The notes under the pieces were generated by a model that was not told where the DNA came from, ran no database searches, and saw only the letters and a list, made by a program, of their open reading frames with translations. A DNA stretch of 64,000 nucleotides from Salibacterium aidingense DSM 18341 (lineage in GTDB: Bacteria > Bacillota > Bacilli > Bacillales > Marinococcaceae), in the NCBI RefSeq assembly GCF_000429685.1, contig NZ_AUCI01000009.1:62001-126000 (forward strand). Direction: 5' to 3'. Positions 16,061 to 31,073 of the stretch are shown one piece after another. The position numbers and the translations under genes are program-made. Positions within the stretch are counted from its first letter, which is position 1; each line of letters starts with the position of its first letter.

Positions 16061-16399
16061 ATGATTATCAATACGACGACATCTGAAACGATCCCTTTAT
16101 CCATTCATTGGGCGGAAACTAGAAGACAGAGGATTGCGGGACTGATGGGAAAAAAATCATTTTCACATGCCGCTCTTGTGCTTCCGGACTGCGAGCAGAT
16201 ACATACAGCTTTTATGCGTTTTCCGATCGATGTATTTTTTATAAACCGGGAGGGGCACGTGTTGGATTTAGAAAAGAACCTCAAACCATGGCGGGTCAGT
16301 AAAAAAGTCAAGCAAACGAGTTTTATTTTGGAAACAGCTGCTGGAGTAACAGAGCCTGGTAGCATTAGGCCGGGAGACCATATTGTGATACAGGAGTGA
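16061..16399 (+). CDS. DUF192 family protein
   Basis: 112 residues covering the whole DUF192 domain: RIAGLMGKKSF (about 24-34), HTAFMRFPIDVFFIN (about 48-62), LKPWRVS and the final SIRPGDHIVI. The family has a small beta fold and no settled function, but members are often found beside secretion or pilus genes. It has no signal peptide here. It is six bases from the next membrane-protein gene and appears to open the transcript leading into the Tad genes. The ribosome site AAAGGATAA is 10-11 bases from the ATG, a long spacing. Confidence 0.82.
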   Translation: MIINTTTSETIPLSIHWAETRRQRIAGLMGKKSFSHAALVLPDCEQIHTAFMRFPIDVFFINREGHVLDLEKNLKPWRVSKKVKQTSFILETAAGVTEPGSIRPGDHIVIQE

Positions 16400-16405
16400 G
16401 GGGAA

Positions 16406-17050
16406 ATGCAGACCTATGCCGAACGATCCGCTATTCATCTATCTCCACTAGGGAGAACAGCTGCAAAACCTCTGTTGTTTCTGGTACCGCTGTTTTTTTT
16501 CTTTCATCTTGCTATGCTGTGGGGGCAAAAAGTCGTTGCCGGGCAATTTCCAATATGGGCCCAAGTCAGTGAATTACTTGCTATGCTGGCTTCGATAGGA
16601 CTCAGCATGTTTGGCTGTTTCGTACTGGCAGCGTATTACTATGAGGCCGAGCAAAAACAGCCGGTGAAAGCAATAAAAAACCAAGGCAGAGCTTTTTTAT
16701 TAACGACAGTCATTTATCTCAGCCTGACGGCTCTTGGATTTTTGTTGTTTGTGGTCCCCGGGATTTTAATTGGACTGTTTGGGATATTTTATCCATTTGT
16801 TCTTCTTGAGCATAATAAAAAAGGTCTGGAGGCTGTGAAAACAAGTGCCCGGGTGGTTAAGTCGTGTTTTTTTAAGGTTGTGCTCTGCTATATCATGTTT
16901 TTTTTATTATTCATTGCGGTCGGGACGCTTTTTGTCATTCTTTGGCCGGAGTACAGTATGGCGGGAGAAGCAGCGGCGGGAGCGCTTGTTCTTCCAATAG
17001 AGGCATTTTTTTATTACAGCCTTTACCGGAAATCATCTTTTAACTCATAG
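16406..17050 (+). CDS. Polytopic membrane protein in Tad locus
   Basis: 214 residues with about five to six membrane segments. The block FVVPGILIGLFGIFYPFVLLEHNKKGLEAVKTSARVV (about 116-152) resembles the YciC/DUF975-like group, in which a hydrophobic hairpin precedes a helix with A-x-x-x-S. Function unknown. GAGGGGAA precedes the ATG. The next gene encodes a protein with the same kind of block, so the two may form a heteromer. Confidence 0.65.
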   Translation: MQTYAERSAIHLSPLGRTAAKPLLFLVPLFFFFHLAMLWGQKVVAGQFPIWAQVSELLAMLASIGLSMFGCFVLAAYYYEAEQKQPVKAIKNQGRAFLLTTVIYLSLTALGFLLFVVPGILIGLFGIFYPFVLLEHNKKGLEAVKTSARVVKSCFFKVVLCYIMFFLLFIAVGTLFVILWPEYSMAGEAAAGALVLPIEAFFYYSLYRKSSFNS

Positions 17051-17065
17051 AAAGCGGTGGATTTC

Positions 17066-17818
17066 ATGTACATCAAGCAGAACCATATCCAGCCCCAGTC
17101 TCTGTCGGATATCGTCAATCAAGGAATTGGTCTGGTATTGACTCTTTTTTCAAAAATGGTTTTTGTTCCTATCATTACAGCACTACCGTATTTCACTGCA
17201 ATTGCTTATTTGCGGTTTAACTTTCAGGAGGAGCTGCCATGGCTTGGGGCTGCGGTGGCCAGTGCAGGCAGTGCCGCTTATGTTTGGCTCTTGGTAAGCT
17301 TCCCTTTTATCGTTCTATTTAGTGAAAAGGGAACCTCCTGGTCTGTCAGTCAAAAACTGGCGTTGAAAAAATGGGGAAAAAAGGTCCCGCTTCTTGCAAT
17401 AGGATTTATTTTATACTCGATTTTACTTGCAGCTGGCGGAATTTTGTTTCTCCTTCCGGGTGTGCTTGTATTTCTGCTTTTTATGTTATTTCCTTTTATT
17501 TCTATTTTTGAAAATAAATCTGTTTGGCAGGCTTTTAAACGCAGCGCGTTTTTGATGAGGGGGGCTTTATTCCGCGGAGGATGTCTGGCTGCTTTAATGC
17601 TGGGAGTTCAAATCATTCTGCATACCTCTATTCTCAGTTTGTTCGCGGCAGACGAATTTTGGGTGCTGGGACTGTCGGCAGCGTTGACTCATGCTGTTAT
17701 TGTTCCTTTCCAGTCTGTCGTGCTGGCTATCTTTTATTTTAGTGTAAGGGCGGAAAAAGAAGCATTTGATTACAAAGTATTTCAATCCTATGCATTTCGA
17801 TATGACATGGCACAGTAA
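17066..17818 (+). CDS. Polytopic membrane protein in Tad locus, second
   Basis: 250 residues with about six membrane segments. The segment LLPGVLVFLLFMLFPFISIFENKSVWQAFKRSAFLM (about 133-168) matches the arrangement seen in the preceding gene product, so the two are distant relatives. Function unknown; a role in membrane assembly of the pilus machine is only inferred from position. ATG 17066 with AAAGCGGTGG five bases upstream is preferred to a GTG at 17057 that overlaps that ribosome site. Confidence 0.65.
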   Translation: MYIKQNHIQPQSLSDIVNQGIGLVLTLFSKMVFVPIITALPYFTAIAYLRFNFQEELPWLGAAVASAGSAAYVWLLVSFPFIVLFSEKGTSWSVSQKLALKKWGKKVPLLAIGFILYSILLAAGGILFLLPGVLVFLLFMLFPFISIFENKSVWQAFKRSAFLMRGALFRGGCLAALMLGVQIILHTSILSLFAADEFWVLGLSAALTHAVIVPFQSVVLAIFYFSVRAEKEAFDYKVFQSYAFRYDMAQ

Positions 17819-17836
17819 GAACGAGGAGGCGCTGAC

Positions 17837-18563
17837 ATGGCAGCAAAAATCAGCATACGTTTCATTATCATCATAGCGGGATCTTTAGCAATAGCGTTTC
17901 TCGTTTATCAGTACTTACAAAGTTTAGAAGAAACCAGCATCGTGTTTGTAGCTTCTTCCACGATAGAAGCAAATACAGAAATTAGTACGGAAGATGTCGA
18001 AGCTGTGGAAGTAGATGCTCAATCTGCTGACATTCTTGCCGCGGACGGTATTCAATCTGCAGAAGAAGTGACAGGCGGGTTTGCTTTAGAAGAGATAGAA
18101 TCTGGGGAGGTTTTAACCCTGGATGAAGATACGATTGTTTTTCCGGAGGACAGGCAGCTGTATTTAACCGCTGCCGGAGAAACCGATTTGTCTGCTTTTA
18201 TTCCAATGGATAAACGAGTGATTACTGTAGCCCTGGAACCGGACGCAGCCGTCAACAATGTGCTGGAAAAAGGAGACTGGGTGGATGTTATTTACCAGCC
18301 AGGAGGAGGACGATACCACGTATTCTGAAATGATATTGCAGCAGGTTGATGTATTTCAGGCGGAAGAAATAGAGGCAGGAGCAAATGGAGGCGGCAAGGC
18401 AGGAATGGTCCAGCACGTATCACTGCTTCTCTCGCCGCAGGATGCCGTTACTCTGACTAATGCCAGACAGCAGGGAGAGATTGACTTAATGATGAATCCA
18501 TGGAACGGGGAACAGACAGAGGTTTCACCAGTCAGTCTGACTCCCCAGGGGGAGAGTGAATAA
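17837..18563 (+). pseudogene. cpaB: CpaB/RcpC-type pilus assembly protein, frameshifted
   Basis: The first frame gives an N-terminal membrane anchor (about 8-27) and an SAF-like domain (SSTIEANTEISTEDVEAVEV, then GGFALEEIESGEVL), and stops at 18328. The continuation, from EDDTTYSEMILQQVDVFQAEE through the RcpC-like VSLLLSPQDAVTLTNARQQGEI, is in the next frame and ends at 18563. Removing one G near 18301-18303 gives an unbroken protein of 241 residues. RcpC/CpaB proteins are periplasmic or cell-wall-side partners of Tad pilus assembly. The gene is followed two bases later by cpaE. Whether the extra base is biological or an error cannot be judged here. Confidence 0.8.
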
Positions 18564-18565
18564 CC

Positions 18566-19831
18566 ATGACAGCAGAACAAAAAACTCCGGTTTCATCGAG
18601 CATGACAGTTGTTCCCTGCGGACTCGACCCAACTTTCCTGCAGGCTTTACATAAACATATAGAAAAACATCTGCCCTTTGTAGAACTTGCCCCTGTTTAC
18701 GATTCAGTAGAAACTCTTCCGGCCGCTGTTGATGACGTGGAAGCAGATGTTGCCCTTCTTTCCCTGGACCAACTCAAAAATGCAGCCAAGGATCAGGAGG
18801 AGCTTATCGAAGCAGGCTTCAAGAAAATTATACTCGTGACAAAAGGACTTGATCCTTTTCGTTCTCGTATCCCGCTGAAAGAACCTTATGTTGAAATGAT
18901 GTACGAGCGGACTCCGATGCGGATTATAGCCGAACGAATGGTCACTTTTGAATCCAGTACTTCTCCAAGACTGTACACCAATGTTCACCCTGAAAACGAA
19001 AAACGGGAAACAGGCAGAAATATTCTTTTTTATTCAGCAAAAGGCGGGATAGGCAAGACCACGGTTTGTTTAAACACGGCAGCTCAACTGGCGCAAAAGG
19101 GGTATAACATCCTTGTGGTCGATTTTGCTACGTTTGGTTCGATTGGGCTTCAGCTTCAGCTTCCCCGTCAGGACCGTGGGTTATCTGACATTATTGGTGC
19201 TTTGGAACAGCCGACCATCGGTACAGAGGAACTGAACCAGACTATTCGATCTGCTGTTACTTCCGTGGATGTGCACGGCCATTCGATGGATATATTAACG
19301 GCTGGTTCCGCCATGAAAATGACGTCGCTGGATTTGAAAAAAACGGATGCGATTTTGGAAGGAATCCAGGACAGCTCGTATGATTTTATTCTTATGGATA
19401 CCTCCTCCGATTTGACGGAGAAAAATATAGCGCTGATGAGTTTTTCGACAGATATTATGTTTTTAACGACAACGGATCTGGCTGCGAACTGGGCCCTTCT
19501 TGCTGCACTGGATTTAGTAGATACCCTGAATCAGCCGATGCAGAATCGTTATTTGCTCCTGAACCACTATCAGGATGCTTTAGGCTTTCCGGTACCAGAG
19601 CTTGAATCGATATTGTCCATGAGCATTTCGGTAGTGATACCGGATAAGTATGAACAAATTCAAGGGTACGCCAACCGCGGTATTCTGATTGCCGAAAAGT
19701 CGAACCTGAAACTGAATCGATATTACCGACAGGTGGCTCATCTGATTTCCCCGGTATTTACGGCGAAAGAACTTGGAGAGCGCAGCATGAAGCGGCGTCA
19801 GAAAAAGAAGAAGGGAGCGGCACAGGTATGA
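18566..19831 (+). CDS. cpaE: TadZ/CpaE-type ATPase of pilus localisation
   Basis: 421 residues. N-terminal domain (about 14-125) resembles an atypical receiver without phosphorylation site; C-terminal MinD/ParA-like ATPase has the deviant Walker A SAKGGIGKTT (157-166), VVDFATFGSIGL as the A' motif and YDFILMDTSSD as Walker B. TadZ proteins mark the site of Tad machine assembly at the membrane and bind the secretion ATPase. The basic C-terminus RRQKKKKG may contact membrane. ATG 18566 has GGGGGAG nine bases upstream. It overlaps cpaF by four bases. Confidence 0.88.
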   Translation: MTAEQKTPVSSSMTVVPCGLDPTFLQALHKHIEKHLPFVELAPVYDSVETLPAAVDDVEADVALLSLDQLKNAAKDQEELIEAGFKKIILVTKGLDPFRSRIPLKEPYVEMMYERTPMRIIAERMVTFESSTSPRLYTNVHPENEKRETGRNILFYSAKGGIGKTTVCLNTAAQLAQKGYNILVVDFATFGSIGLQLQLPRQDRGLSDIIGALEQPTIGTEELNQTIRSAVTSVDVHGHSMDILTAGSAMKMTSLDLKKTDAILEGIQDSSYDFILMDTSSDLTEKNIALMSFSTDIMFLTTTDLAANWALLAALDLVDTLNQPMQNRYLLLNHYQDALGFPVPELESILSMSISVVIPDKYEQIQGYANRGILIAEKSNLKLNRYYRQVAHLISPVFTAKELGERSMKRRQKKKKGAAQV

Positions 19832-21204
19832 GCATTGAGGAGGCGATCAAACAGAAGCAGTATCAGGAGGACAGAGAAGAGGCCTCCGAGCAGTATAAAG
19901 AAGAACGCCTGCATGAGCTCAAGCAGACGATTCGGGAAAAGCTGATGAAAGAAAATAACCAAAACAACCGCCTGCTTCTTGAGCCTGAAAGGCTGTCTGC
20001 GTCGATTTGGTCAAATCTCGAAAAAGAAACTGATCATGCGTTTAGGGATCTGCTGTTGTCAAATTACGAAAAAAGAACTGTGGCGGAGGATATTCAGCAG
20101 CAGCTCGTCGGTTTTGGGGTGATTGATCCATTAATTAAACGAAGCGATATCACCGAAATTATGGTGAATGGGACGGAAGAAATTTTCATTGAGAAACAGG
20201 GAGTATTGGAGCGTGCCATTGATGAAGACGGTCATGAGATTTCCTTCACCAGCGAGCAGGAGGTCCTGAATATCATTGAAAAGATCGTTGCCCCGATTAA
20301 CCGGAAGGTAGATGAAAGTGATCCGATTGTGGATGCGAGACTCCCGGACGGCTCCCGTGTCAACATTGTAATTCGGCCCATTTCACTAGACGGCCCTATT
20401 ATCACGATTCGAAAATTTCCGGAACGTCCTTATTCGATGGAGGAGCTTGTTTCTTTCGGGGCCTTGGATGAAGAAACGTCAGCGTTTCTGGAACAACTGG
20501 TCCGGGCGAAATATAACATTGTCATTTCAGGTGGCACGGGTTCAGGGAAAACGACTTTCCTCAACGCACTCAGTGCTTCGATTCCCAATCGGGAACGGAT
20601 TATTACGGTAGAAGATTCCGCCGAACTGAAGCTGAACCAGATCGATAACCTTGTACGGCTGGAAACGAGGCCTCCAAATATTGAAGAAAAAGGGGAGGTA
20701 TCCATGAGAGACCTCGTGCGGACAGCGCTGCGGATGCGTCCGGATCGGATTGTGGTCGGGGAAGTCCGTGGCGGAGAAGCATTGGACATGCTCCAGGCCA
20801 TGAATACAGGGCATGATGGTTCGTTAACGACCGGACACGCGAATTCGGCGGATGACATGCTTTCCAGACTTGAAACGATGGTCCTGATGTCTGGACTTGA
20901 ACTTCCTATACCAGCGATACGCAGACAGATTGCTTCTTCTGTGGAACTTATCGTCCAGTTGGGGCGGCTCCGTGATGGATCAAGAAAAGTCCTGCAGCTC
21001 ACAGAAATAAAGCAGCTGGAAAACAATGAAATCCAGACAACCGATATCTTGAAGTGGGAAACGGACCCGAAACGGAGCACCAGAGAAAAATTAGAAGGAG
21101 CCCTGCAGCCGACCGGCGAGGAAATGACGCAGACGGAAAAGTGGGAAGGCGCCGGATTCAGCACCTTTCGAATTAAAAATTCCCCGATGGTGAGGGGACA
21201 ATGA
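19828..21204 (+). CDS. cpaF: Tad pilus secretion ATPase TadA/CpaF
   Basis: 458 residues. N-terminal charged helices (1-90), then the type II/IV secretion ATPase core: Walker A GGTGSGKTT (235-243), Asp box around TVEDSAELKL, Walker B RMRPDRIVVGEVRGGEALDM and His box TGHDGSLTTGHANS. It powers assembly of the Flp pilus from the cytoplasmic face, working on TadB/TadC. Start ATG overlaps the cpaE stop (ATGA), and its own stop overlaps tadB, so three genes are translationally coupled. Confidence 0.95.
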   Translation: MSIEEAIKQKQYQEDREEASEQYKEERLHELKQTIREKLMKENNQNNRLLLEPERLSASIWSNLEKETDHAFRDLLLSNYEKRTVAEDIQQQLVGFGVIDPLIKRSDITEIMVNGTEEIFIEKQGVLERAIDEDGHEISFTSEQEVLNIIEKIVAPINRKVDESDPIVDARLPDGSRVNIVIRPISLDGPIITIRKFPERPYSMEELVSFGALDEETSAFLEQLVRAKYNIVISGGTGSGKTTFLNALSASIPNRERIITVEDSAELKLNQIDNLVRLETRPPNIEEKGEVSMRDLVRTALRMRPDRIVVGEVRGGEALDMLQAMNTGHDGSLTTGHANSADDMLSRLETMVLMSGLELPIPAIRRQIASSVELIVQLGRLRDGSRKVLQLTEIKQLENNEIQTTDILKWETDPKRSTREKLEGALQPTGEEMTQTEKWEGAGFSTFRIKNSPMVRGQ

Positions 21205-22115
21205 TGAATGCTTTTCTTTTACTGCTGTTCGTATTTTTATCAGCACTTGCCGTACTTACTGCTTTTCTGGATCTACTCACATTATTTGCAAAAAAGAGAC
21301 TGCCTTATCAGAAAGGGGTCAGAAAACGCTGGAAGGAAGCGGGGGTCTACCGGGAGACGGTGGAAAAGAGAAAACGGCAGAAAACCAATAAGACATTGGA
21401 TCAGGCCGATGTATTTGTCTTTTTGCTGGGAGCTTTTGCATTGTTTTGTATTGGTCTTGTGTTTTTTCGAACGACAGTTCTTGCTGTGCTTTTCAGCCTG
21501 CTGGCCCTTTATTTTCCTAAATATCGAAGGGGACGGCTGGAGCGGAAAAAAACACAGCTTTTTCTGCAGCAATTCCGGAGTGCGATGGGATCTATCGCCA
21601 GCTCTATCCGTGCCGGGGCCTCCCTGCAGATTGCTTTAAAGAGGTGCGAGGATGATTTGAAAAAAGAACTTATCGCCCACAAATCACAGCCGGTATTAGA
21701 GGAAATGAATGAAATAAATCATGATATTCAGTTCGGTATGTCGGTGGATGAAGCTCTCCGTCAGTTTAAAGAAAAAATGCAGCTGGAAGACGTAACACAA
21801 TTCGTGGATTCCTTACTGGCCGTCCGTTCCAAGGGCGGCAATATTACTCAGGTTATTCAGAATACATCCGAACGGATATCGGACAAGATAATGGTCCAGC
21901 AGGAAATACAGGTAGCTACGGCTCAAAAACGAATGGAAGCAAATATACTCAGTATTTTTCCGGTCGTTATCGTGTTACTCATTATGGTGGTGAGTCCAGA
22001 TTATCTGCAGCCGATGTACGAGTCGGCGGCCGGTACGTTCATGCTGTTCATCGGCGCGTTACTGCTTCTGGCCAATTTCTTTATCGGCAAAAAGGTAACA
22101 AACATTGACTTGTAG
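21201..22115 (+). CDS. tadB: Tad pilus inner platform protein TadB
   Basis: 304 residues. Membrane segments near the N-terminus (about 2-24), at 75-110, and two at the C-terminus surround a cytoplasmic T2SSF domain with FRSAMGSIASSIRAGASLQIAL (about 128-149) and LAVRSKGGNITQVIQNTSERI. Platform subunit that couples the TadA ATPase to pilin extraction. An in-frame ATG at 21204 is an equally possible start. Confidence 0.9.
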   Translation: MMNAFLLLLFVFLSALAVLTAFLDLLTLFAKKRLPYQKGVRKRWKEAGVYRETVEKRKRQKTNKTLDQADVFVFLLGAFALFCIGLVFFRTTVLAVLFSLLALYFPKYRRGRLERKKTQLFLQQFRSAMGSIASSIRAGASLQIALKRCEDDLKKELIAHKSQPVLEEMNEINHDIQFGMSVDEALRQFKEKMQLEDVTQFVDSLLAVRSKGGNITQVIQNTSERISDKIMVQQEIQVATAQKRMEANILSIFPVVIVLLIMVVSPDYLQPMYESAAGTFMLFIGALLLLANFFIGKKVTNIDL

Positions 22116-22125
22116 GTGATGAAAA

Positions 22126-23013
22126 ATGGAATTGGTTATTTCTGTGCTTGTTTTCCTTGTGCTTTCCCTCATTTTCTTTCCGGCAGCTTCCCTGCGTGCG
22201 ATACTGCTCCGCAAAAAACTGATGAAGGCCGCGCCGGAAGAAAAAGTCCAGCGGAAAGGAATCCTGGAACGATTTACTCCGCTTGTACAAAGCATGAGGC
22301 TTGCCTTGAACATCCGCCTTACTCACCAAAAAAAAGCCTGGCTCCAGTCAAAGCTGAACCGGGCAGGCTACCAGGACAGGATGTCCGTCGATCATTTTGT
22401 TACGTTCAAAGTGCTGTCTGCTGCAACGGGTGCTGTTTATTTTCTGTTTCTCGGAGCAGTTAGCGGAAATGCTACCATGCTTTTCCTGGCCGCAGCTGCC
22501 CTGCCGCTCGGATACAAAATACCAGATGTATGGCTCTCCGGAAGAATAAAGGCCAGACAGGAAAAAATAAGGCGGGAGCTTCCCTATGTTCTGAACGCCA
22601 TTTCTATCCTGGCCGATGCAGGAACGAATTTATTCCCCGCCATTCAGGAGGTTGCGGAGAAACAAAAGGGCGAGTTTTCAAAGGAGCTGACGCAGGTGAT
22701 CCGGGATGTCAACATGGGAATTTCTCAAGGCAAGGCCTTGGAAGAAGTGGGGTATCGCTGCCAGGTCGATGAAGTGAGCAGGTTTGTTTCGGCTATCACC
22801 CAGAACCTTGAAAGAGGCAGCGCCGGAATAACCGAAACACTGAGACTACAGGCAGCAGAGGTGTGGGAACGCAGGAAAAAACACGCGCAGCAGCTGGGGG
22901 AACAGGCATCTATGAAACTATTTCTTCCCCTGGTGCTGCTGGCGCTGCCTGCCATGATGATTTTCATGATAGGCCCTGTCGTTCTAAGTCTGCTTGACTT
23001 TTTTCAGAGTTGA
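22126..23013 (+). CDS. tadC: Tad pilus inner platform protein TadC
   Basis: 295 residues with the same layout as TadB: N-terminal membrane segment, central pair at about 95-130, T2SSF domain RRELPYVLNAISILADAGTN (about 147-166) with AITQNLERGSAGITETLRLQA, and a final hydrophobic hairpin. TadB and TadC are usually encoded next to each other and form the platform together. AGGTGATGAAAA precedes the ATG. Confidence 0.9.
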   Translation: MELVISVLVFLVLSLIFFPAASLRAILLRKKLMKAAPEEKVQRKGILERFTPLVQSMRLALNIRLTHQKKAWLQSKLNRAGYQDRMSVDHFVTFKVLSAATGAVYFLFLGAVSGNATMLFLAAAALPLGYKIPDVWLSGRIKARQEKIRRELPYVLNAISILADAGTNLFPAIQEVAEKQKGEFSKELTQVIRDVNMGISQGKALEEVGYRCQVDEVSRFVSAITQNLERGSAGITETLRLQAAEVWERRKKHAQQLGEQASMKLFLPLVLLALPAMMIFMIGPVVLSLLDFFQS

Positions 23014-23056
23014 CAGACCAGCCCAGGTAATCAAGAAAAGGGGGGAGGAAAAAGAC

Positions 23057-24871
23057 ATGAAACAGTTACGCACAAGCCTGGCTTTATTTCTCGCTGTTTT
23101 TCTGGTTATCCAGCCGGCAGCCGGTTCTGCTTCACTCCTGCTGCTTTCGGCATCAGCAGAAGAGGGGGAGGAAGAAAAAGACTCTCCTGTCCCGAAAATC
23201 GATCGGGCAGATGAGTCCGCCAGCCGGGAAGATGGCGGCGGTAATGACCTGCCCGATCCGGGATCCGGCGGGGGAAATGAAGACGGCGGAAATCCCGGCG
23301 GATCGGATGGTCACCCGGGCAGCGGTGAGAACAATCCAGGCGGGGACGGCACCTCCGGGAGTTCCGGCGAAGATCCGGGCAGCGAAGGAAGCAGTTCCGG
23401 AAACGGAGATTCTAATGAAAAAGACGATGGTTCTGCATCATCCGGGGAAGAAGATCCTGGAGCAGATGGTTCCGGAGGAGATGGTACACAAGGGGAAGAC
23501 GGAGATGATGGCCAAACAGGGGAAGAGGGAACAAAGGACAACGAAGAAACCAATAGAAATCCCGGTGGTTCTGTCACACGCGGGGAGAATGAACAGTTAA
23601 AAGATATATTAAGGGATATCAAAAACAGTGACGAAGCACTCGGAAGTTTGAGCAATATTCTTGATGGAGACGCGAAAGGAAAAAATCTTACAGCGATTGC
23701 CCTCGCCTTAGCCGGATCAGCGGACAAGGATAACGATGGCTATACGAAGACTATCAACACGATACAAGATAGTTTATCTGCCAGACAGTATCAGAAATTA
23801 GTTAATGAATTTGGATTAGAGGAAAACTTGTCTCAAAGAAACTATTTAACAAAACAAATAAAAATAATTCAAGATGATGATTTGAGAGAAAATTTTATTA
23901 ATAAAATTAATAATTTTGAAAGAGAATCTCGTTCAGGGAGGATTCACGCGGGTCTCTTTAACGGTATACTGGATAAACCGGTAAACATGGCTAAGAATGG
24001 TTTTCAAACTGTAACAAATGGAGCTTTAAACAGTCTGGACAGGCACATGGAAGCGTTTGGTATGATGGTTGATAATGTATCGGAACGATTCCAAACGATG
24101 GCCGACGCGGGAGCAGCCAAGGCTGAAAAGTCTTTGAAACATGCAGACATGAAAAGGGGAGCAGCGAAAGGAAATACATGGAAGAATATGAAGACTGTTG
24201 CAGCAGAATGGACGAATAAGGGAATGGCACAGGTGTTACCAGCAGTAAGCAATGGCTTTTCCCGGATGAGCCAGTTTGGGGAGACTGTTGCTAATTCCAA
24301 TGCCGGCAAAGCTGTTGGAGATTTGCTGAAAAGTGGACAACAGGCAGCGGGCAATGCTTGGAACAGTGCCACGAATGTCGTCAACAAGGCAATGGATTCG
24401 AAAATTGGTAAAGGGATACGAAACATAGCATCTTCTCCGGTAGGTAAGATGGCAGGAGGGGCTTTGAGCGGATTATCTCTTTATGATGGATACAACAAAG
24501 TCACGTCTGGTGATGGCTGGCAGGACACTGTTGGTGGATATGCTGACATCGCCAGCGGCGGACTTGGCCTGGCTGCTGTAGCCGCAACAACTGTATTTGC
24601 CGGTACAGCCGCGGCGGCAGCCGCACCTATTCTTGCTACGGGGGCTGCTGTAGCCGGAGTTGTTTCTCTAGGGATTACCTACGGACCAAAACTTGTTAAT
24701 ACCTGGAACAATTCCAAAGTTGGAAAAAGCGTTAATAAGTTTGCTAAAAATACATGGAATACGGCAAAGGATGCTGCAGGAAACGCGGCCTCTGCTGCTA
24801 AAGACGCAGTCAAGAATGTAGGAGACAGCATTACTTCCGGTATTTCCAGTTTATTTGGAGGAAGCAGCTAG
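23057..24871 (+). CDS. Secreted low-complexity protein of Tad locus
   Basis: 604 residues, function not recognised. A Sec signal peptide (1-34) is followed by an acidic Gly/Ser/Asp/Pro-rich stretch to about residue 180, a mostly helical polar middle (about 185-440), and a C-terminal part with ASGGLGLAAVAATTVFAG and TAAAAAAPILATGAAVAG hydrophobic segments (about 500-545), then an Ala/Lys-rich helix ending DSITSGISSLFG. That C-terminal style resembles the scaffold of Firmicute LXG/WXG-type exported toxins, but no toxin domain or LXG motif is visible. Start ATG 23057 follows GGGGGGAGG; an in-frame upstream start lies inside tadC. Could be a pilus tip or surface adhesin exported or anchored by the Tad system; that is inference from position. 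Confidence 0.7.
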   Translation: MKQLRTSLALFLAVFLVIQPAAGSASLLLLSASAEEGEEEKDSPVPKIDRADESASREDGGGNDLPDPGSGGGNEDGGNPGGSDGHPGSGENNPGGDGTSGSSGEDPGSEGSSSGNGDSNEKDDGSASSGEEDPGADGSGGDGTQGEDGDDGQTGEEGTKDNEETNRNPGGSVTRGENEQLKDILRDIKNSDEALGSLSNILDGDAKGKNLTAIALALAGSADKDNDGYTKTINTIQDSLSARQYQKLVNEFGLEENLSQRNYLTKQIKIIQDDDLRENFINKINNFERESRSGRIHAGLFNGILDKPVNMAKNGFQTVTNGALNSLDRHMEAFGMMVDNVSERFQTMADAGAAKAEKSLKHADMKRGAAKGNTWKNMKTVAAEWTNKGMAQVLPAVSNGFSRMSQFGETVANSNAGKAVGDLLKSGQQAAGNAWNSATNVVNKAMDSKIGKGIRNIASSPVGKMAGGALSGLSLYDGYNKVTSGDGWQDTVGGYADIASGGLGLAAVAATTVFAGTAAAAAAPILATGAAVAGVVSLGITYGPKLVNTWNNSKVGKSVNKFAKNTWNTAKDAAGNAASAAKDAVKNVGDSITSGISSLFGGSS

Positions 24872-24873
24872 AG

Positions 24874-25587
24874 ATGAGGAGAAAAAGATCTTTTCTGATC
24901 TTCCTCCTGATGGCCATCAATATCATAACAGGATGCAGTTCCAATGCTGCATCTTCCCCCCAACATGGGGGCCAGGGGGAAATGAGTCAGCAGAATATGG
25001 ATGAAAAATGGCTTCACCGCATGGAACAAAGAGGTATGACCGAAGCACTGGCTTCGGCAGAGGCAGAAGAGGAATCAAAAGAACATGCTTCGGAGGAAGT
25101 AGATAAGGCATCCATTCGAGCAGAAGGGCAGGCTCTCATTGAAGAAAGCAACTGGAAAGCCACGACTTTGAACATTACAGAAAAAGACCATAAAGAATTT
25201 GAAGAGCAGACACTGACATATTTCGAAGAAGACATGCTGGAACGATATCCACCCGTACAGAAGGATACCATCGACATGCTGGCGACAATGATGACAGAAG
25301 ACGGCGAAGATTTAGTTGTCACGGGTGTGATCCGCAATGGGTATGAAGATAAGGCATTCGAACGAGACGAATTGGAAAATGGTACGATTACACTGAGAAA
25401 TGGAACGATGAACAGACTCGCAGGTTCTCCATTTGATCCATACTTGTCCAAATCAGTACTGCAGCCGGGAGAGGCCCTACCTTTCAGACATCGTTTCAAA
25501 GAAGAAAAGATTCGGATTAAAGGTTTTGATTATGATGCTTACGGTTATTACCTGCACTATACTTTAAAAAAGGAGGAAGAAAAGTGA
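24874..25587 (+). CDS. Lipoprotein with SLAP-like domain
   Basis: 237 residues. Signal peptide with lipobox ITGC (Cys21). The C-terminal third has the order VVTGVIRNGYED, NGTITLRNGTMNR, VLQPGEALPF..RF, which resembles SLAP domains of Firmicute surface proteins (a short beta module with the I-R-N-G motif). The middle is acidic and helical. It begins three bases after the secreted 604-residue protein and overlaps the pilin gene, so it may be a cell-envelope partner of one of them. The SLAP match is from memory of motif order and is tentative. Confidence 0.65.
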   Translation: MRRKRSFLIFLLMAINIITGCSSNAASSPQHGGQGEMSQQNMDEKWLHRMEQRGMTEALASAEAEEESKEHASEEVDKASIRAEGQALIEESNWKATTLNITEKDHKEFEEQTLTYFEEDMLERYPPVQKDTIDMLATMMTEDGEDLVVTGVIRNGYEDKAFERDELENGTITLRNGTMNRLAGSPFDPYLSKSVLQPGEALPFRHRFKEEKIRIKGFDYDAYGYYLHYTLKKEEEK

Positions 25588-25757
25588 AAAATTTGATGAA
25601 AAGGTTCTGGAAGGAAGAGGATGGACAGGCATTAAGTGAATATGGTGTCATACTTGGCATCATTCTTGTTGGTGTCATTGGTGCGATTACCGCATTAAGT
25701 GATCAAATCCTATCTGTGTTCGAGAGTATTACCGACTCCCTGAATATAGGTGGATAA
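25584..25757 (+). CDS. flp: Flp-type pilin (57 residues)
   Basis: Major pilin candidate of the Tad pilus. The product starts VKNLMKRFWKEEDG and continues QALSEYGVILGIILVG: a short basic leader, Gly at the prepilin cleavage point, Glu five residues later and the Flp Glu-Tyr pair, then one hydrophobic helix. The GTG at 25584 overlaps the preceding stop (GTGA) and has AGGAGGAAG six bases upstream; an ATG at 25596 would also keep the cleavage site. The prepilin peptidase gene follows 27 bases later. Only one Flp gene is seen in the window. Confidence 0.92.
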   Translation: MKNLMKRFWKEEDGQALSEYGVILGIILVGVIGAITALSDQILSVFESITDSLNIGG

Positions 25758-25784
25758 GAAAATGACAGGAAAGGGGATACAATT

Positions 25785-26261
25785 TTGATAGTGATATTAC
25801 TCATAGCTGTTCTATTAATCTCTTCAGCTTATACAGACATAAAACAGAATCGTATCCCCAACTATTTTATAGTCATGATCCTAATTTTCAGTATGCTCTA
25901 TTTATTAGTAAACAACCCTGCTGAATGGTGGAGTTATGCCCTTAGTATGGCTGCTACACTCGTGCTTTTTTTTCTGCTCTGGGTCATCGGATTTTTGGGT
26001 GCAGGGGATGCCAAACTGGCAGCTGCTGCCGCCCTCACTTTATCTTTTCCTGATACATACTGGTTTTGGATCTTATCCATTGGAGGCGGCGTGTTGTTTT
26101 CAATCCTCCAAATGCTACGTTATAACGGCCCACGGGCTATCATAGATATTCTTTGGAGATGGTGGCTTAGTATCATGTATAAAACCGATAAACGGGAGAG
26201 TTCGGTCACTTTTCCCTTTGCCCCGGTCATAGCTCTGACCTGGATGGTGATCGTATGGTAA
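25785..26261 (+). CDS. tadV: Prepilin peptidase TadV/CpaA
   Basis: 158 residues, A24 aspartic peptidase. Catalytic Asp18 in YTDIKQNRIPN and Asp75 in GAGDAKL are both present, with about five membrane segments. It should cleave Flp, TadE and the TadG-like protein after the Gly. The start is TTG at 25785, supported by AAAGGGGATA upstream and by the position of the first membrane segment; no ATG fits. It overlaps tadE by seven bases. Confidence 0.92.
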   Translation: MIVILLIAVLLISSAYTDIKQNRIPNYFIVMILIFSMLYLLVNNPAEWWSYALSMAATLVLFFLLWVIGFLGAGDAKLAAAAALTLSFPDTYWFWILSIGGGVLFSILQMLRYNGPRAIIDILWRWWLSIMYKTDKRESSVTFPFAPVIALTWMVIVW

Positions 26262-26668
26262 AACAAATAAAAAAACTAGTTCATAATGAACGAGGGCAGG
26301 CTTTATCTGAATTCGCCGTCGTGATGCCGGTGCTGATTATGTTTATTGTAGGAGGACTTCTGCTTGGGACAGTGGCTTACAACCAAATGATTGTAGTCGC
26401 AGCAGCGAATCAGGGGGCCCGCACCGGGGCAGCTGTTATTGCAGAGGAAGGCAGTTCGACCTTCGATGCAGCCGATCGAGCCCGGCAAACGGCAGAAAAC
26501 ACGCTCTCCTTTGCAGCAGGCGGAAATTGTGGGAATGTGAACCCAGCCAGGAGCGGTGATGACTTTGTTGTTGAAGTGCACTGCGATTATAATGTACCGC
26601 TTTCGTTTCTTTCAAACGGCGGCTCGTTTCAATTAACCCATGAATCGGAATACCGTATCTTTGATTAA
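26255..26668 (+). CDS. tadE: TadE-family pseudopilin
   Basis: 137 residues. A processing site NERG then QALSEFAVVMPVLIMF (about 12-30) gives Gly followed by Glu at +5, as in type IV prepilins and TadE. The extracytoplasmic part contains Cys pairs (GNCGN and VHCDY) that might form a disulfide. Minor pilin of the Tad pilus. Confidence 0.9.
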   Translation: MVKQIKKLVHNERGQALSEFAVVMPVLIMFIVGGLLLGTVAYNQMIVVAAANQGARTGAAVIAEEGSSTFDAADRARQTAENTLSFAAGGNCGNVNPARSGDDFVVEVHCDYNVPLSFLSNGGSFQLTHESEYRIFD

Positions 26669-26682
26669 GGGGACTCTCAATC

Positions 26683-27099
26683 ATGAAAGATGTATTAAAA
26701 AGGGAAGAAGGTTTTGTGGCACCGTTTGTTGCTCTCATGATCCCCGTATTCATCGCGCTATGCGGTCTGCTTGTGGACGGAGGGTTATTGGCGGCTAATC
26801 ACATTAAACTTTCAGGAGCGGTGGATGCAGCGGCTCATGGGGCTCTCGACTCATATGATGAGACAGCTTGGGAAGAAGACGATGAAATTGAATTACAGGC
26901 GTCCGAAGCCAGGAATCTTGCTGTTCACTACCTTCATGAGAATCATCCGGAAGCCCGTATAGATTTATTTCAATCCGATTCTCATTCTGTTTATGTCGAG
27001 GCATCTGCTCCTTCCCCTTTGTTTTTTATGAAAATAGCAGGTTTTAATGAAGTGTCTATTGAGGCCTCTGCCGGAGCAACGCTTGGGGAAGGAGAGTAG
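26683..27099 (+). CDS. Short TadG-like pseudopilin
   Basis: 138 residues. N-terminal EEGFVAPFVALMIPVFIALCGLLVDGG (about 8-34) is the TadE/TadG-type hydrophobic start with the V-D-G pair; the next block AANHIKLSGAVDAAAHGAL matches TadG-like proteins. Full TadG proteins are several hundred residues with a von Willebrand A domain; this one lacks that part. Fifteen bases after tadE, in the same transcript. Confidence 0.8.
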   Translation: MKDVLKREEGFVAPFVALMIPVFIALCGLLVDGGLLAANHIKLSGAVDAAAHGALDSYDETAWEEDDEIELQASEARNLAVHYLHENHPEARIDLFQSDSHSVYVEASAPSPLFFMKIAGFNEVSIEASAGATLGEGE

Positions 27100-27102
27100 G
27101 AA

Positions 27103-27558
27103 ATGGCTTTCAAACGTTTTATCGGTTTGCTTATGGATATAATAATTTGGTTTTTTATCTTTTTTTATCCGATGATCTGGCTGATGGATATGCTTATTCC
27201 AACCCGCGTCGTCTCTTTGCTCCTTGTCCATGGAATGGTCCTGCTTCTTCTTACGGTTGCCGCCTATCAACGAGGTGGACAAACGTGGGGACAAAAAATA
27301 GTTGCAGTCGAAATAAAAACAATGAGCCATGAGGTTCCATCGTTTTTCAGGCTTTTGGCCCACTTTTTATCGGCCTATCTTCTTTACTTATATTCTTTCG
27401 GACTGCTCTATATCGTAAGTGTTATCGTTCAACAGATAAGAAAAGATAAACGAATGCTGCATGACTTAATCTCCGGGACAAAACTGGATGTTTCCCAAAC
27501 GGCAGAGATAAACACTCCACAAATTGGAGAAGGGGAAGGTAAGAATGAACAAATATAG
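27103..27558 (+). CDS. RDD-family membrane protein
   Basis: 151 residues, three to four membrane segments with RDD landmarks: FKRFIGLLMDIIIW (Arg and Asp of the family name) near residue 3, GQTWGQKIVAVEI near 56 and RKDKRMLHDLISGTKL near 112. Function of RDD proteins is usually transport-related or unknown. Three bases after the TadG-like gene; overlaps the following lipoprotein gene. Confidence 0.8.
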   Translation: MAFKRFIGLLMDIIIWFFIFFYPMIWLMDMLIPTRVVSLLLVHGMVLLLLTVAAYQRGGQTWGQKIVAVEIKTMSHEVPSFFRLLAHFLSAYLLYLYSFGLLYIVSVIVQQIRKDKRMLHDLISGTKLDVSQTAEINTPQIGEGEGKNEQI

Positions 27559-28054
27559 TATAATACTAATAACAATACTCCTTCTTCTGTTGGCCGCATG
27601 CGGGAATAACGCTGCCGAAGAAGCAGAAGAAGTGAGAGACCAAGCGTTAAATGAAGAATTCTGGCAGACCTATGATTATTTCATGACGGTGCAGACGTTG
27701 AATGCCGGACAGATTGAGTATTATTATCCACAAGTGATGGAAGGGCTGAATAAGCAAATAACAACGTTGAACGAATTAGATATTCAGACAGAAGACGTCG
27801 CTGAAATAAGAAATAGTTTTGTACAGGGGTTTGAGGCGATGCAGAGGGCGTATGAACCATTGGAAGGGGAATATGAAGCCATGTACAATGATACTCTGAG
27901 CACTGACTTGGAAGAAAATTATTCTGCGGAAATAGAAAAAAGTAACGAACAGATGACTAATGCTCTTGCAGGGTTAATGGAATATTTTGAATTTGAAGAA
28001 GGGGAAGAAGAAGAGATTATGCGAGAACTAGAACCTTGGATGACAGAACAATAA
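27545..28054 (+). CDS. Acidic lipoprotein, unknown function
   Basis: 169 residues. Signal peptide with lipobox LLAAC near residue 18, then a highly acidic, wholly helical mature part (EEAEEVRDQALNEEFWQTYD onward) with no recognised family. ATG 27545 is chosen because GGGGAAGGTAAG lies just before it and the signal peptide begins there. It would sit at the outer face of the membrane. Probable accessory factor of the Tad unit. Confidence 0.7.
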   Translation: MNKYSIILITILLLLLAACGNNAAEEAEEVRDQALNEEFWQTYDYFMTVQTLNAGQIEYYYPQVMEGLNKQITTLNELDIQTEDVAEIRNSFVQGFEAMQRAYEPLEGEYEAMYNDTLSTDLEENYSAEIEKSNEQMTNALAGLMEYFEFEEGEEEEIMRELEPWMTEQ

Positions 28055-28072
28055 TTGGAGGCTGACGAATAG

Positions 28073-29542
28073 ATGAAACCGGTCCATATGACAAAAAAGC
28101 TGACAAAAGCGCAGAAAAAGGCCTACAAACCTCACGCTTTGCCGGAATTCCCCATATATCGGACGTTTCCCATCGAGAAGGATGGCAGGTATTTTTATCT
28201 CGTAGGTCAGGTAAGTCTCGATGAAGAAGACCATTTTATGCAGTGGATGGTCCTGGATGACGAAGGAACTAGGGTGGATAAAACAACGGCAAGACCGATT
28301 CATGAAATTTACACGACGTGGCAGTGGGCGAGAAACCTATCGGATAGCTTAATTCCTTTGTTGGAAGAGCGAGAACAGCTGCATCCGGATCCGGAAGCAT
28401 TGGAACAGTTGATCCGACGGACCGCTGAACAGTTGAAACAGAGGCATAATGAGGATAATCCGGAAGAGATGCTGAAGTTTATAACGCTGTTCAGAAATAA
28501 GACGATCCGCGAACATGAAATTCTGGCGTTTCTTTATGAGTTAAAGGAAGTTGTTCAGAGAACGGAATCGGAAGGATCCTTGTCCGAGCAGAACGCAACA
28601 CGAATTCTAGAACTGTGGGAAGAACTTCAAGAAGAATATCAACCATGGATTCAACAAATATTTCATATCGAGTCAACAACTATTCAACAATTGGGAATAC
28701 AACTAAGAAATAAAAATAAAACAGTCGAAGAAAAGTATGCACGCTCCTTTTATCTGGAAAGAAATTATGTGCGATCAACAGCTTCTTCTCTTTCTTCTCT
28801 TTACGGTCGTTTTGATGGAGACTGGAACCACCTGCTGAAATGGCATTTTGAAGAGACCCGGATAGATCCCGAAAATCCAAAACCTCCCATTTCTTTCAAG
28901 GGTAAATATAAACCATATCCCGTCTTGAAAAAAATCTATCAGGCGATGGTTTATGCCATCATTCCTCTGGAAGCTTTAATATTTTTAGGGACATGGAATA
29001 TCGGTGTTTTAATTACAATCGGTGTACAACTGTTGGTCTTCGTTCCTGTTATTCGTATGTATTGGATGGGCGCAACTTTGCATCTCATTTTCCAGTGGAA
29101 AGAAATTATCGCGGATAAAAGCATGGTGATCGCGAGTTTCGAAGCCGATAATACGGGATCGGCCTCCGCGTTTAAAACCGGAGCAATCCTGGCTGCCGTC
29201 ATTGGCGGCATCATGTACGCTTTTTCGAGAGAATGGCCGCTGCTGCTTGGCTTTTTGATCGTCGCAGCCCTGTTGTATGGCTACGGGGAACTCTCCGCAC
29301 GCACATCGTTGTCCCGGACCAAAGTGGACTTTCACGAAGCCTGGATCAAAATCGGACCGAACGAGGTATGGAGTCATCAGATCCGGGATCTGTTGTGGGA
29401 AGGCGAGAGGACGCTGAAGATCGATCAGGGCAAAGACAAAGCGGCGTTTTGGATTCAGTTCAAACCAGAAGACAAGGAGGCTGCTGCCGCAGCGCTGGAA
29501 AAGTGGTGCGAGAAAAACGGTCAAACTGTGAACAGTGCATAA
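28073..29542 (+). CDS. Membrane protein with variable middle, copy 1
   Basis: 489 residues, family not recognised. N-terminal region (1-75) starts KLTKAQKKAYKPHALPEF; a helical charged middle (about 95-260) follows; then FKGKYKPYPVL, two membrane hairpins (about 285-330 and 365-405) and a C-terminal globular part, VDFHEAWIKIGPNEVWSHQ, which could be a PH-like fold. It lies 18 bases after the lipoprotein gene and 24 bases before a paralog. The two proteins match closely at both ends and only weakly in the middle. RBS GGAGG, eleven bases upstream. Confidence 0.75.
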   Translation: MKPVHMTKKLTKAQKKAYKPHALPEFPIYRTFPIEKDGRYFYLVGQVSLDEEDHFMQWMVLDDEGTRVDKTTARPIHEIYTTWQWARNLSDSLIPLLEEREQLHPDPEALEQLIRRTAEQLKQRHNEDNPEEMLKFITLFRNKTIREHEILAFLYELKEVVQRTESEGSLSEQNATRILELWEELQEEYQPWIQQIFHIESTTIQQLGIQLRNKNKTVEEKYARSFYLERNYVRSTASSLSSLYGRFDGDWNHLLKWHFEETRIDPENPKPPISFKGKYKPYPVLKKIYQAMVYAIIPLEALIFLGTWNIGVLITIGVQLLVFVPVIRMYWMGATLHLIFQWKEIIADKSMVIASFEADNTGSASAFKTGAILAAVIGGIMYAFSREWPLLLGFLIVAALLYGYGELSARTSLSRTKVDFHEAWIKIGPNEVWSHQIRDLLWEGERTLKIDQGKDKAAFWIQFKPEDKEAAAAALEKWCEKNGQTVNSA

Positions 29543-29566
29543 TCGTCCATAAAGGGAAGGATATTC

Positions 29567-31033
29567 ATGAAACCGGTTCATGTGAGAAAGAAGCTGACAA
29601 AAGCCCAGAAGAAAGTCTATATACCTCATGCTCTTCCGAAATTCCCCATTTATCGGACGTTTCCGATCGAAAAAGATAGAGAGTACTATTTTATCGTTGG
29701 TCAAGTTTCTACGGATGAGTATGAACATTTCATGCAGTGGATGGTATTGGATGAACAGGGGAATGTGCAGGAGGAAGATACCGCGAAATCTGTTTATGAG
29801 GCTTATACTCATTGGCTATGGGCAAAAAAACTGCCTGATTCTTTGTCTTCTTTTCTGGAAAAACGAAAGGATATGGATCCGGACTCGGAACGAATGGAAC
29901 AGCTGATTGAACGGGTTGCTAAAGAGGCTAAGAATGTTTATAGCGATGAAATATCTTTAGACATTTTTTCTTTCATCTCTGTCTTGAAAGATAAACCAGC
30001 TTATGAAGAGCAAATTATAGAGTATCATTCTGCTATAAAGGAGCTCGTTCAACAGATAGAGTCGGAGCAACGTTTATCAGAGATGAAAGGCTGTCAAATT
30101 ATAGACTTGTGGGAATCTTTTATAAAAGAATATAATCCCTGGCTTCTGAAATTATTTCATTTTAATGAACATGTAGTTCTTGATACATGGCTTGAAAGAG
30201 AAAAAAACTTTCAAGAAGAAGCAGACTATATTTCTAATATTATTTTAGAACGTAATTGTATGAACTCCACAGCATTAACTATTTCCTATCTTTCTGATTA
30301 TTTTGATGGCGACTGGGAAAATTTATTGGAGTGGCATTTTGAAAAGACCCGAGTAGACCCCGAAAACCCAAACCCCCCTATCTCCTTTAAGGGCAAATAT
30401 AAACCGTATCCTGTTCTGAACTGGATCTACAAGGCATTTATCTATGCCATCCTTCCTTTGGAAGCTCTTTTGTTTTTAGGGACGTGGAATACCGGGATTC
30501 TGGTTACGATCGGCGTTCAGTTGCTGGTATTCATTCCTATTATCCGAACCTATCGGGTGGGGGCAACTTTGCATCTCATTTTCCAGTGGAAAGAAATTAT
30601 CGCGGATAAAAGCATGGTGATCGCGAGTTTCGAAGCCGATAATACGGGATCGGCCTCCGCGTTTAAAACCGGAGCAATCCTGGCTGCCGTCATTGGCGGC
30701 ATCATGTACGCTTTTTCGAGGGAATGGCCGCTGCTGCTTGGCTTTTTGATCGTAGCTGTTCTGTTGTATGGCTATGGGGAACTCTCCGCACGCACATCGT
30801 TGCCCCGGACCAAAGTGGACTTTCACGAAGCCTGGATCAAAATCGGGGCGAACGAGGTATGGAGTCATCAGATAAGAGGTCTTTCCTGGGAAGAGGAGCG
30901 GACATTAAAAATTGATCAGGGCAAAGACAAAGCGGCGTTTTGGATTCGGTTCAAACCAGAAGACAAGGAGGCTGCTGCCGCAACGCTGGAAAAGTGGTGC
31001 GAGAAAAACAACCGCTCCGTTTCCGGTTTATAA
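29567..31033 (+). CDS. Membrane protein with variable middle, copy 2
   Basis: 488 residues, tandem paralog of the preceding gene. The N-terminal 75 residues and everything after residue about 265 are strongly conserved; residues about 95-260 are only about 30 percent identical and are encoded by more AT-rich DNA. DNA from 30563 to 30753 matches copy 1 (29072-29262) with one mismatch, which points to recent gene conversion. RBS AAGGGAAGG. It is the last gene before a strong terminator. Confidence 0.75.
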   Translation: MKPVHVRKKLTKAQKKVYIPHALPKFPIYRTFPIEKDREYYFIVGQVSTDEYEHFMQWMVLDEQGNVQEEDTAKSVYEAYTHWLWAKKLPDSLSSFLEKRKDMDPDSERMEQLIERVAKEAKNVYSDEISLDIFSFISVLKDKPAYEEQIIEYHSAIKELVQQIESEQRLSEMKGCQIIDLWESFIKEYNPWLLKLFHFNEHVVLDTWLEREKNFQEEADYISNIILERNCMNSTALTISYLSDYFDGDWENLLEWHFEKTRVDPENPNPPISFKGKYKPYPVLNWIYKAFIYAILPLEALLFLGTWNTGILVTIGVQLLVFIPIIRTYRVGATLHLIFQWKEIIADKSMVIASFEADNTGSASAFKTGAILAAVIGGIMYAFSREWPLLLGFLIVAVLLYGYGELSARTSLPRTKVDFHEAWIKIGANEVWSHQIRGLSWEEERTLKIDQGKDKAAFWIRFKPEDKEAAAATLEKWCEKNNRSVSGL

Positions 31034-31073
31034 GAAATAGACGAGTCTGGGACAAAACATTATCATGGACAAA

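Follow-up and report, generated by a model that had tools for sequence, protein, structure and literature searches.

A rare Tad pilus locus with recurring companion genes in Salibacterium aidingense, with indications of lateral exchange

Introduction

A stretch of 64,000 nucleotides of Salibacterium aidingense DSM 18341 was analyzed (the window; G000:C8:62001-126000, in a genome of 55 contigs and 4.42 Mb), and its positions 16061–31033 hold 18 genes, all on the + strand, that include the core genes of a Tad locus. The Tad core families are known to make the Flp pilus. Nine further genes lie among and behind the core genes (the initial annotation counted eight, although its own list gives nine), and the question raised by this locus is whether these are parts of the pilus system or its chance neighbours, and whether the whole constitutes a distinct kind of surface appendage. 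The comparisons reported here favour a reading of the locus as a laterally exchanged variant of the known monoderm Tad pilus with a little-known set of companion genes.

Results

Organization of the locus

The open reading frame (ORF) list places the 18 genes with intergenic gaps of no more than 43 nt. Their 17 borders comprise 12 gaps (2–43 nt) and five overlaps, three of them 4 nt long (g5/g6, g6/g7 and g10/g11), one 7 nt and one 14 nt. The genes and two flanking elements are as follows.

15977–16012, +: upstream element, a copy of which is left in the S. salarium deletion scar (33/36 nt identical)
16061–16399, +: g1, DUF192 protein, 112 aa, first gene of the locus (PF02643, 60.3 bits)
16406–17050, +: g2, membrane protein, 214 aa, YciC/UPF0259-like (PF06790, 28.5 bits, below the cut-off of 31.4)
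17057–17818, +: g3, membrane protein, 253 aa, distant relative of g2
17837–18563, +: g4, cpaB/rcpC, in frames 17837–18328 and 18258–18563, with SAF and RcpC halves (Pfam)
18566–19831, +: g5, cpaE/tadZ, MinD-like ATPase, 421 aa (PF13614, AAA_31, 57.7 bits)
19828–21204, +: g6, cpaF/tadA, motor ATPase, 458 aa (PF00437, T2SSE, 217.7 bits)
21201–22115, +: g7, tadB, platform protein, 304 aa (PF00482, T2SSF, 57.7 bits)
22126–23013, +: g8, tadC, platform protein, 295 aa (PF00482, T2SSF, 54.5 bits)
23057–24871, +: g9, secreted protein, 604 aa (hydropathy, and linkage of its C-terminal profile to Tad loci)
24874–25587, +: g10, lipoprotein, 237 aa, with a SLAP-type domain (TIGR04398)
25584–25757, +: g11, flp, major prepilin, 57 aa, GTG start (PF04964, Flp_Fap, 26.5 bits, below the cut-off of 32.2)
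25785–26261, +: g12, tadV, prepilin peptidase, 158 aa, TTG start (PF01478, Peptidase_A24, 58.8 bits)
26255–26668, +: g13, tadE, minor pilin, 137 aa, processing site G|QALSEF (PF07811, 40.7 bits)
26683–27099, +: g14, tadG-like short pilin, 138 aa, without a large C-terminal domain (PF13400, Tad, 26.6 bits)
27103–27558, +: g15, RDD membrane protein, 151 aa (PF06271, 33.9 bits)
27545–28054, +: g16, helical lipoprotein, 169 aa (alignment)
28073–29542, +: g17, membrane protein, 489 aa (predicted structure)
29567–31033, +: g18, paralog of g17, 488 aa, 66% identity overall
31072–31112, +: terminator-like hairpin, 17 bp, after g18 (pattern match only)

The ORFs and Pfam assignments agree with the initial annotation in placing the named core genes, with several overlaps, in one co-directional 15-kb array. 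The best NCBIfam match of g6 is TIGR03819 at 312.9 bits, under its cut-off of 373.15, and in a gene tree this protein clusters with the CpaF proteins of other Tad loci. Beyond this TadA/CpaF-type ATPase, the marks of a Tad system present here are the tandem TadB and TadC platform pair, a short Flp prepilin (processing site G|QALSEY, with E5/Y6 visible in the sequence), the prepilin peptidase, and the TadE and TadG-like pilins; an intact CpaB/RcpC is absent from the window genome, both halves being there in two frames, so that the locus is not complete as had been described. A secretin was not expected in a single-membrane cell, and a search of the whole window genome with PF00263 indeed gave 0 matches (the control search was positive in 6/14 known genomes). 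Promoter-like pattern matches are at chance level (24, with 24.3 expected), and terminator-like ones are somewhat over chance (25, with 15.6 expected). We regard 16061–31033, from its sequence, as a real monoderm Tad (Flp) pilus locus, here with one damaged core gene.

A rare type of Tad locus

The Tad loci examined in the order were sorted into four types, A to D, labels that we coined for this analysis. Type A has eight loci: that of the window and those of Salibacterium halotolerans S7 (G018, L040), S. salarium DSM 16461 (G020, L041), Bacillaceae JMAK1 (L042), Geomicrobium sediminis (L043), Geomicrobium sp. JCM 19038 (L044), G053 (L069), which belongs to another family, and Alteribacter natronophilus (L073). 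CpaF was searched for in 29 genomes of the family, 397 of the order and 329 of the phylum, with E <= 1e-140 as the type-A threshold. CpaF proteins of this type occur in 6/397 genomes and 3/135 genera of the order, with that of Geomicrobium sp. JCM 19038, a split protein, falling narrowly short of the threshold (1.3e-137), and in 2/329 genomes of the phylum sample, namely the window's own and G534, a member of another class; no companion gene is marked by blastp around the Tad core of the latter. Seven loci, including a distant match in Pseudobutyrivibrio, came from a further scan of named genomes, whose patterns were narrow and whose silence elsewhere carries little weight.

A tree built from 23 CpaF proteins unites its seven type-A members in a single clade (100/100), L044 being the one type-A locus not represented, as a stop splits its CpaF. 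The type-A locus thus appears to be a distinct Tad variant that is rare within the order. It had been proposed to be a distinct surface-appendage system of halophilic Bacillaceae, and the gene order shared across families agrees with the first part of that proposal; at 6/397 genomes it is not typical of halophilic Bacillaceae at large.

The window genome also has a second, highly divergent Tad-like locus (L059; G000:C11:45000-64999), with a 519 aa CpaF-like protein (27% identity), MinD/CpaE-like ATPases, RcpC, a prepilin peptidase, an SLH-domain protein and a 532-aa secreted protein; a close counterpart is found in G006 (L066).

Companion genes keep their order across families

The order DUF192-g2-g3-cpaB-cpaE-cpaF-tadB-tadC-g9-g10-flp-tadE-tadG is common to the window, A. 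natronophilus and G053, and in the latter two it is followed by a g17-like protein (20–24% identical) and by g16-like lipoproteins. The genes g1–g3 and g9–g10 occupy the same positions in S. halotolerans. Since this order recurs in another family, the companions are unlikely to be random neighbours, and we do not attribute their arrangement to chance. TadV is encoded at the G053 locus as in Salibacterium, and A. natronophilus lacks it between flp and tadE (L073:14855-15010), tblastn of the 20.9-kb locus finding none. The longest-first ORF caller missed tadB in L040 and tadV in L069, both of which are present by tblastn and ORF listing.

The individual companions differ in their spread. The DUF192 gene, whose product has no signal peptide visible by eye, opens 8/8 type-A loci and 4/5 type-B loci, the stretch of the fifth having ended before that point. 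A g3-like membrane gene lies directly before cpaB in 8/8 type-A loci, and a g2 counterpart is at the same place in L040, L069 and L073. The RDD gene g15 is in 2/8 type-A loci, those of the window and S. halotolerans. In L041–L044 a secreted protein of similar build is encoded beside flp (for G. sediminis, on a separate contig), and proteins of other families are found at the locus, in two copies in L041 and L042 and as one whole copy in L043 (at a contig end) and L044; L040 likewise has a pair of tandem paralogs adjoining the locus. That these paralogs form a single family across the subgroups is not supported: hhalign comparisons among the 294/297-aa proteins, the 260–275-aa proteins and g17 give at most 29% probability, and what they share is a similar position only.

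Upstream of DUF192 in G053, on the opposite strand, is a second protein of the g17 family (L069:1378-3630, 750 aa), and an 838-aa protein of A. natronophilus is placed in the same way and has a weak match to g18 (2.7e-4).

The secreted protein g9 and the lipoprotein g10

By eye, g9 has a Sec-type signal peptide and an acidic Gly/Ser/Asp stalk (residues ~50–170), and these are followed by a middle part and, by hydropathy, a hydrophobic Gly/Ala-rich stretch (~496–543) and an amphipathic tail ending LFGGSS. The middle part is variable among relatives and the C-terminus is conserved. No Pfam family matches g9 at E <= 1 and there is no PADLOC match at 0.01; NCBIfam and PHROG matches are weak (0.048, and 0.022 or worse, respectively), and such misses exclude little.

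Profiles of the g9 C-terminus, g10, g16 and g17 were used in a genome-wide survey of 299 genomes of the order. The g9 profile (A5) matches seven genomes at E <= 0.001, in six of which the match is at a Tad locus. Those in G000, G018 and G053 are strong, those in G257 and G298 are weaker (1.8e-8), and all five lie in Tad loci, the last two having been flagged by the profile prior to any inspection; the weakest, in G008 (9.5e-4), is at a contig end beside flp. The g10 profile (A6) matches 13 genomes, of which the three strong ones (E <= 1.1e-119) are all at Tad loci; the matches in the other ten are weak (6.8e-7 to 9.5e-4; L135 in G206 is one of them), and nine of these ten cover the lipoprotein start. 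The initial annotation had named as contrary evidence the occurrence of accessory genes mostly apart from Tad genes, and neither g10 (3/3 strong matches) nor the g9 C-terminus (6/7 genomes) behaves in this way.

Other types of Tad locus have comparable proteins. A large secreted protein is encoded near flp or tadE/tadG in 3/4 type-C and 5/5 type-D loci, and hydrophobic stretches are present in six of these eight proteins, the six given hydropathy analysis; no large secreted protein was seen in the type-B stretches. The type-D lipoprotein in L128, the one locus tested with Pfam, has a von Willebrand A (VWA) domain, and its homologues are in L053, in L129 and after flp in the type-A G. sediminis. 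VWA domains are common in adhesins.

Several further observations concern these genes. The G. sediminis protein after flp (L130:2962-4440, on a reversed stretch) has 492 aa and shares 33% identity with the VWA-type lipoprotein found in type-D loci, and JMAK1 (L042) and JCM 19038 (L044) encode 492-aa proteins with a similar start at the same place. The Tad loci of G257 and G298 each encode two related lipoproteins, one with a VWA domain, and each have three 260–275-aa paralogs after the secreted protein (L128:13922-18196 and L129:14569-18836); two of these paralogs were scanned and have no Pfam family.

Evidence for lateral exchange

In the window the cassette lies between the orthologues of w14603 and w31495, and in S. 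halotolerans between those of w7404 and w10966, in the same neighbourhood. Identity at fourfold-degenerate sites between the two species is 49.3% (1111 sites) for 13 of g1–g15 (cpaB and flp left out, and g9 represented by its C-terminus) versus 36.2% (2189 sites) for the backbone, the latter from 17 comparisons in which one gene is counted in two stretches; for the tail genes g16 and g17 it is 57.5% and 65.5%. Within the type-A clade of the CpaF tree, the S. salarium protein joins those of JMAK1 and G. sediminis (98/98), apart from its congeners. These three lines (the two locations, the fourfold-site identity and the gene tree) indicate that the locus has moved laterally. Rfam and tRNA searches gave 0 matches each, and they offer no mobile-element anchor.

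Pilus genes have been deleted twice within the genus

The tail of the locus has a different distribution. Three homologues of g16 close the locus in L069, and one does so in L073. The g16 profile (A8) matches 74 genomes at E <= 0.001, mostly noise, and strongly only G000, G018, G019 and G053 (three copies). The g17 profile (A3) matches six genomes, with eight strong matches in five of them, of which six adjoin Tad genes, and a weak match (2.9e-4) in the sixth; the weak g17 match of G211 lies in L134. The predicted structure of g17 (pLDDT 73.1) comprises an N-terminal soluble domain, a helical part, membrane helices and, at the C-terminus, a possible PH-like domain interrupted by a membrane hairpin. 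Residues ~343–489 align (VIA-align) to the PH-like fold with Z up to 11.9, the membrane-hairpin blocks having pLDDT 52–68 and the other domains being barely covered, and Foldseek gave no match to the model at E <= 0.001. This build may resemble that of YcxB-like proteins. Near their 3' ends g17 and g18 share ~300 nt (~29073–29372 and ~30567–30866) that are 95–100% identical, the rest being 47–84% identical per 100 nt, and recent gene conversion between the two is likely.

G019, a member of the same genus, has no CpaF of the Tad type (3.8e-14 for the best match). At 87% identity its DNA follows that of S. halotolerans until 82 nt into DUF192 and resumes 30 nt before g16, a deletion of 11.4 kb in S. 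halotolerans coordinates that leaves the start of DUF192 and open g16 and g17 frames. S. salarium has a scar at the window's own site, between the w14603 and w31495 orthologues (L058:11301-11950, minus strand), which holds a copy of the upstream region (33/36 nt), a short flp match (15 residues, 80%; weak by DNA alone, E 0.11), the end of g16 and an open gene of the g17 family (with a DNA match across both, E 2e-23). The other Tad locus of this species is on another contig and groups with those of JMAK1 and Geomicrobium. Two deletions in the genus have removed the pilus genes at these sites and kept an intact terminal membrane gene of the g17 family. Between S. halotolerans and G019, dN/dS is 0.18 for g16, 0.24–0.29 for g17 and 0.03–0.05 for two flanking genes, over an interval part of which predates the loss.

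These data bear on the place of g16–g18. Strict pilus parts they are not, as G019 retains g16–g17, and S. salarium a g17-family gene, after loss of the adjoining pilus genes; nor are they unrelated neighbours, as both G053 and A. natronophilus have homologues of them at their Tad loci. The tail is best described as separable from the pilus genes. The view of the accessory genes as a Tad-linked set is upheld for g1–g3 and g9–g10, and it is not supported for the separable tail and for the RDD gene with its narrow occurrence.

The cpaB gene is split in the window

The first frame of g4 (17837–18328, 163 aa) matches RcpC positions 2–39 at 25.8 bits and the second (18258–18563, 101 aa) positions 42–113 at 31.7 bits, with a cut-off of 28.8. 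By alignment the gene is a net one base longer than that of S. halotolerans, within ~18292–18310, and its halves are 84% and 82% identical to this counterpart. In the 7/7 other type-A loci (L040, L041, L042, L043, L044, L069 and L073) cpaB is a single frame of 238–242 aa. A real mutation and a draft-assembly error are equally likely causes of the shift, and in either event we interpret it as a defect of one Tad gene, not as the sign of another kind of system. Geomicrobium sp. JCM 19038 (L044:5239-8355) has a stop within cpaF and a short tadC frame of 263 aa, owing to draft error or decay.

Discussion

Relation to known systems

The tad (Flp) operons of Gram-positive monoderms (Imam et al. 2011, PMC3244431) are alike in TadA, TadB/C, TadV, Flp, TadE and RcpC-like parts and in having no secretin, and monoderm Tad systems are reported to have lost the secretin several times (PMC6668835). 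The available text of the former names the known tad genes and, unlike the window locus, does not describe companions such as g9, g10 or g16–g18. A DUF192 protein has already been noted next to Tad genes, in Bulleidia extructa and Helcococcus ovis (PMC12786226), whose tad locus is likewise proposed to have been acquired laterally. In that locus, however, DUF192 is next to last and accompanied by a coiled-coil gene, whereas it comes first in ours, and neither a secreted stalk protein nor a SLAP lipoprotein is mentioned in the accessible portion of the report. Tad genes also accompany further secretion genes in the T7SSg/T7SSh clusters of Bacillota (PMC11217815), but none of the 18 window proteins is a T7SS (EssC-type) protein by Pfam. 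The Kil Tad pilus of Myxococcus (PMC12075869), with its exchangeable surface or tip parts, would resemble the window locus in its working; Kil belongs to a diderm and varies in its minor pilins, whereas g9 has no prepilin signal visible by eye. Closer at hand, the type-B, -C and -D loci of the order share the core genes with type A, DUF192 being found in type B and a large secreted protein in types C and D, and the type-D locus has a VWA lipoprotein (in the one locus tested with Pfam) where the window has a SLAP one. No papers on Salibacterium with Tad were found, and the companions are not mentioned in the titles or abstract openings of the literature on Tad in Bacillota, which does not establish their absence from print.

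A model for the type-A pilus

The observed gene content, the synteny across families, the linkage of g9 and g10 to Tad genes and the two deletions can be drawn together in a model, each functional step of which we infer from the families represented. By analogy with known Tad systems, CpaE would position the machine, and the CpaF motor acting on the TadB/TadC platform would extrude Flp, which TadV matures; TadE and the short TadG would initiate the filament, and CpaB would gate it at the outer membrane face. The protein g9 would exit by the Sec pathway and be held at the membrane or the pilus base by its hydrophobic C-terminal part, with its acidic stalk and variable middle spanning the wall and S-layer. 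Next to it would be the SLAP-type lipoprotein g10, and the two could form a wall-level collar or adhesin, acting roughly where diderms use secretin and pilotin. The products of g1–g3 may support assembly, and g16–g18 would be a separable membrane and lipoprotein module able to outlive adjoining pilus genes. Because of the build of g9, the SLAP match of g10 and the VWA lipoprotein of type D, a stalk, collar or adhesin at the surface or wall level is favoured as their function.

Weighing the explanations

We lean, with moderate confidence, towards a laterally exchanged type-A monoderm Tad pilus of which the companions are a part, with g9 and g10 as the collar or adhesin. A number of observations weigh against it. 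By blastp neither g10 nor g17 is found in L041, L042, L043 or L044 (S. salarium, JMAK1 and both Geomicrobium), and g9 is weakly similar from one type-A subgroup to another (hhalign 79% and 41%, values that hydrophobic composition may inflate), with 1% and 38% against types C and D. The structure model of g9 has pLDDT 33.5, leaving membrane anchoring to rest on hydropathy; one match of its profile, in G253 (2.9e-4), has no Tad gene marked within 20 kb; and the SLAP match of g10 is marginal (TIGR04398, 28.6 bits, 0.1 bit above the cut-off of 28.5). The fourfold-site identities of g1 (23.5%), g2 (23.3%) and g18 (38.5%) are not raised, and g1 and g2 may have a separate history. The CpaF tree program warned of long branches at the outgroup, g16 and g17 persist where adjoining pilus genes are gone, and with cpaB broken as sequenced the strain may not make a pilus.

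This last point leads to the possibility, compatible with the other readings and tentative at best, that the locus in this strain is a decaying remnant, for which the one-base shift in cpaB and the two deletions in the genus both speak. The other 17 frames are open, though, dN/dS against S. halotolerans is 0.04–0.21 for the eight core genes measured, and the assembly may just as well be at fault. We think it unlikely that the pilus is an ordinary one with companions that are mostly chance travellers or serve general envelope functions: DUF192, RDD and YciC-like proteins are widespread away from Tad loci, and blastp marks no companion at the G534 core, but such a view is at odds with the same order in another family and with the linkage of g9 and g10 to Tad genes.

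Somewhat less probable again is a role of the pilus in delivering or displaying g9, then a membrane-active antibacterial protein, with g17/g18 and g16 protecting the producer and hence outliving the pilus genes. The hydrophobic Gly/Ala-rich end of g9 with its amphipathic helices would suit this, as would the adjoining tandem paralogs of hardly related families (g17/g18, pairs in L040, L041 and L042, and three each in L128 and L129), the retention of an intact g17-family gene in 2/2 deletions, the dN/dS of 0.18–0.29 for g16/g17 between S. halotolerans and G019, and the killing by contact reported for the Myxococcus Tad pilus (PMC12075869). Yet a variable middle and conserved C-terminus are the reverse of what is usual in polymorphic toxins; no convincing toxin or defence family is matched in Pfam, NCBIfam or PADLOC; the g17 of S. 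salarium is not strictly without a pilus, a Tad locus being retained elsewhere; and the dN/dS values include time before the loss and exceed those of the flanking genes. The broader proposal that type-A loci are mobile cassettes for weaponry or surface display, combining a Tad pilus, a membrane-active g9 and protective g16–g18, is improbable in our estimation; on that proposal the terminal membrane gene would have been kept in two deletion lineages because of selection for protection, and the result, if it were true, would be a contact-dependent system of a monoderm with a Tad pilus at its base. We give as little credence to a Tad-derived secretion machine, in which a pseudopilus pushes g9 through the wall and no long pilus is made. 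That g9 is the largest exported product, encoded between tadC and flp, and that TadG is short would fit such a machine, but a canonical Flp pilin with E5/Y6 is present and the Sec signal that g9 itself has (by eye) suffices in a monoderm.

Implications

On the favoured interpretation, of a laterally exchanged pilus with its companions, the Tad loci of this group have apparently been exchanged and lost repeatedly, and the presence of a pilus is then not predictable from genus membership. The two natural deletions separate the pilus genes from the terminal module. Both g9 and g10, which recur beside Tad genes across families, are candidates for the means by which a Tad pilus passes through a thick wall without a secretin.

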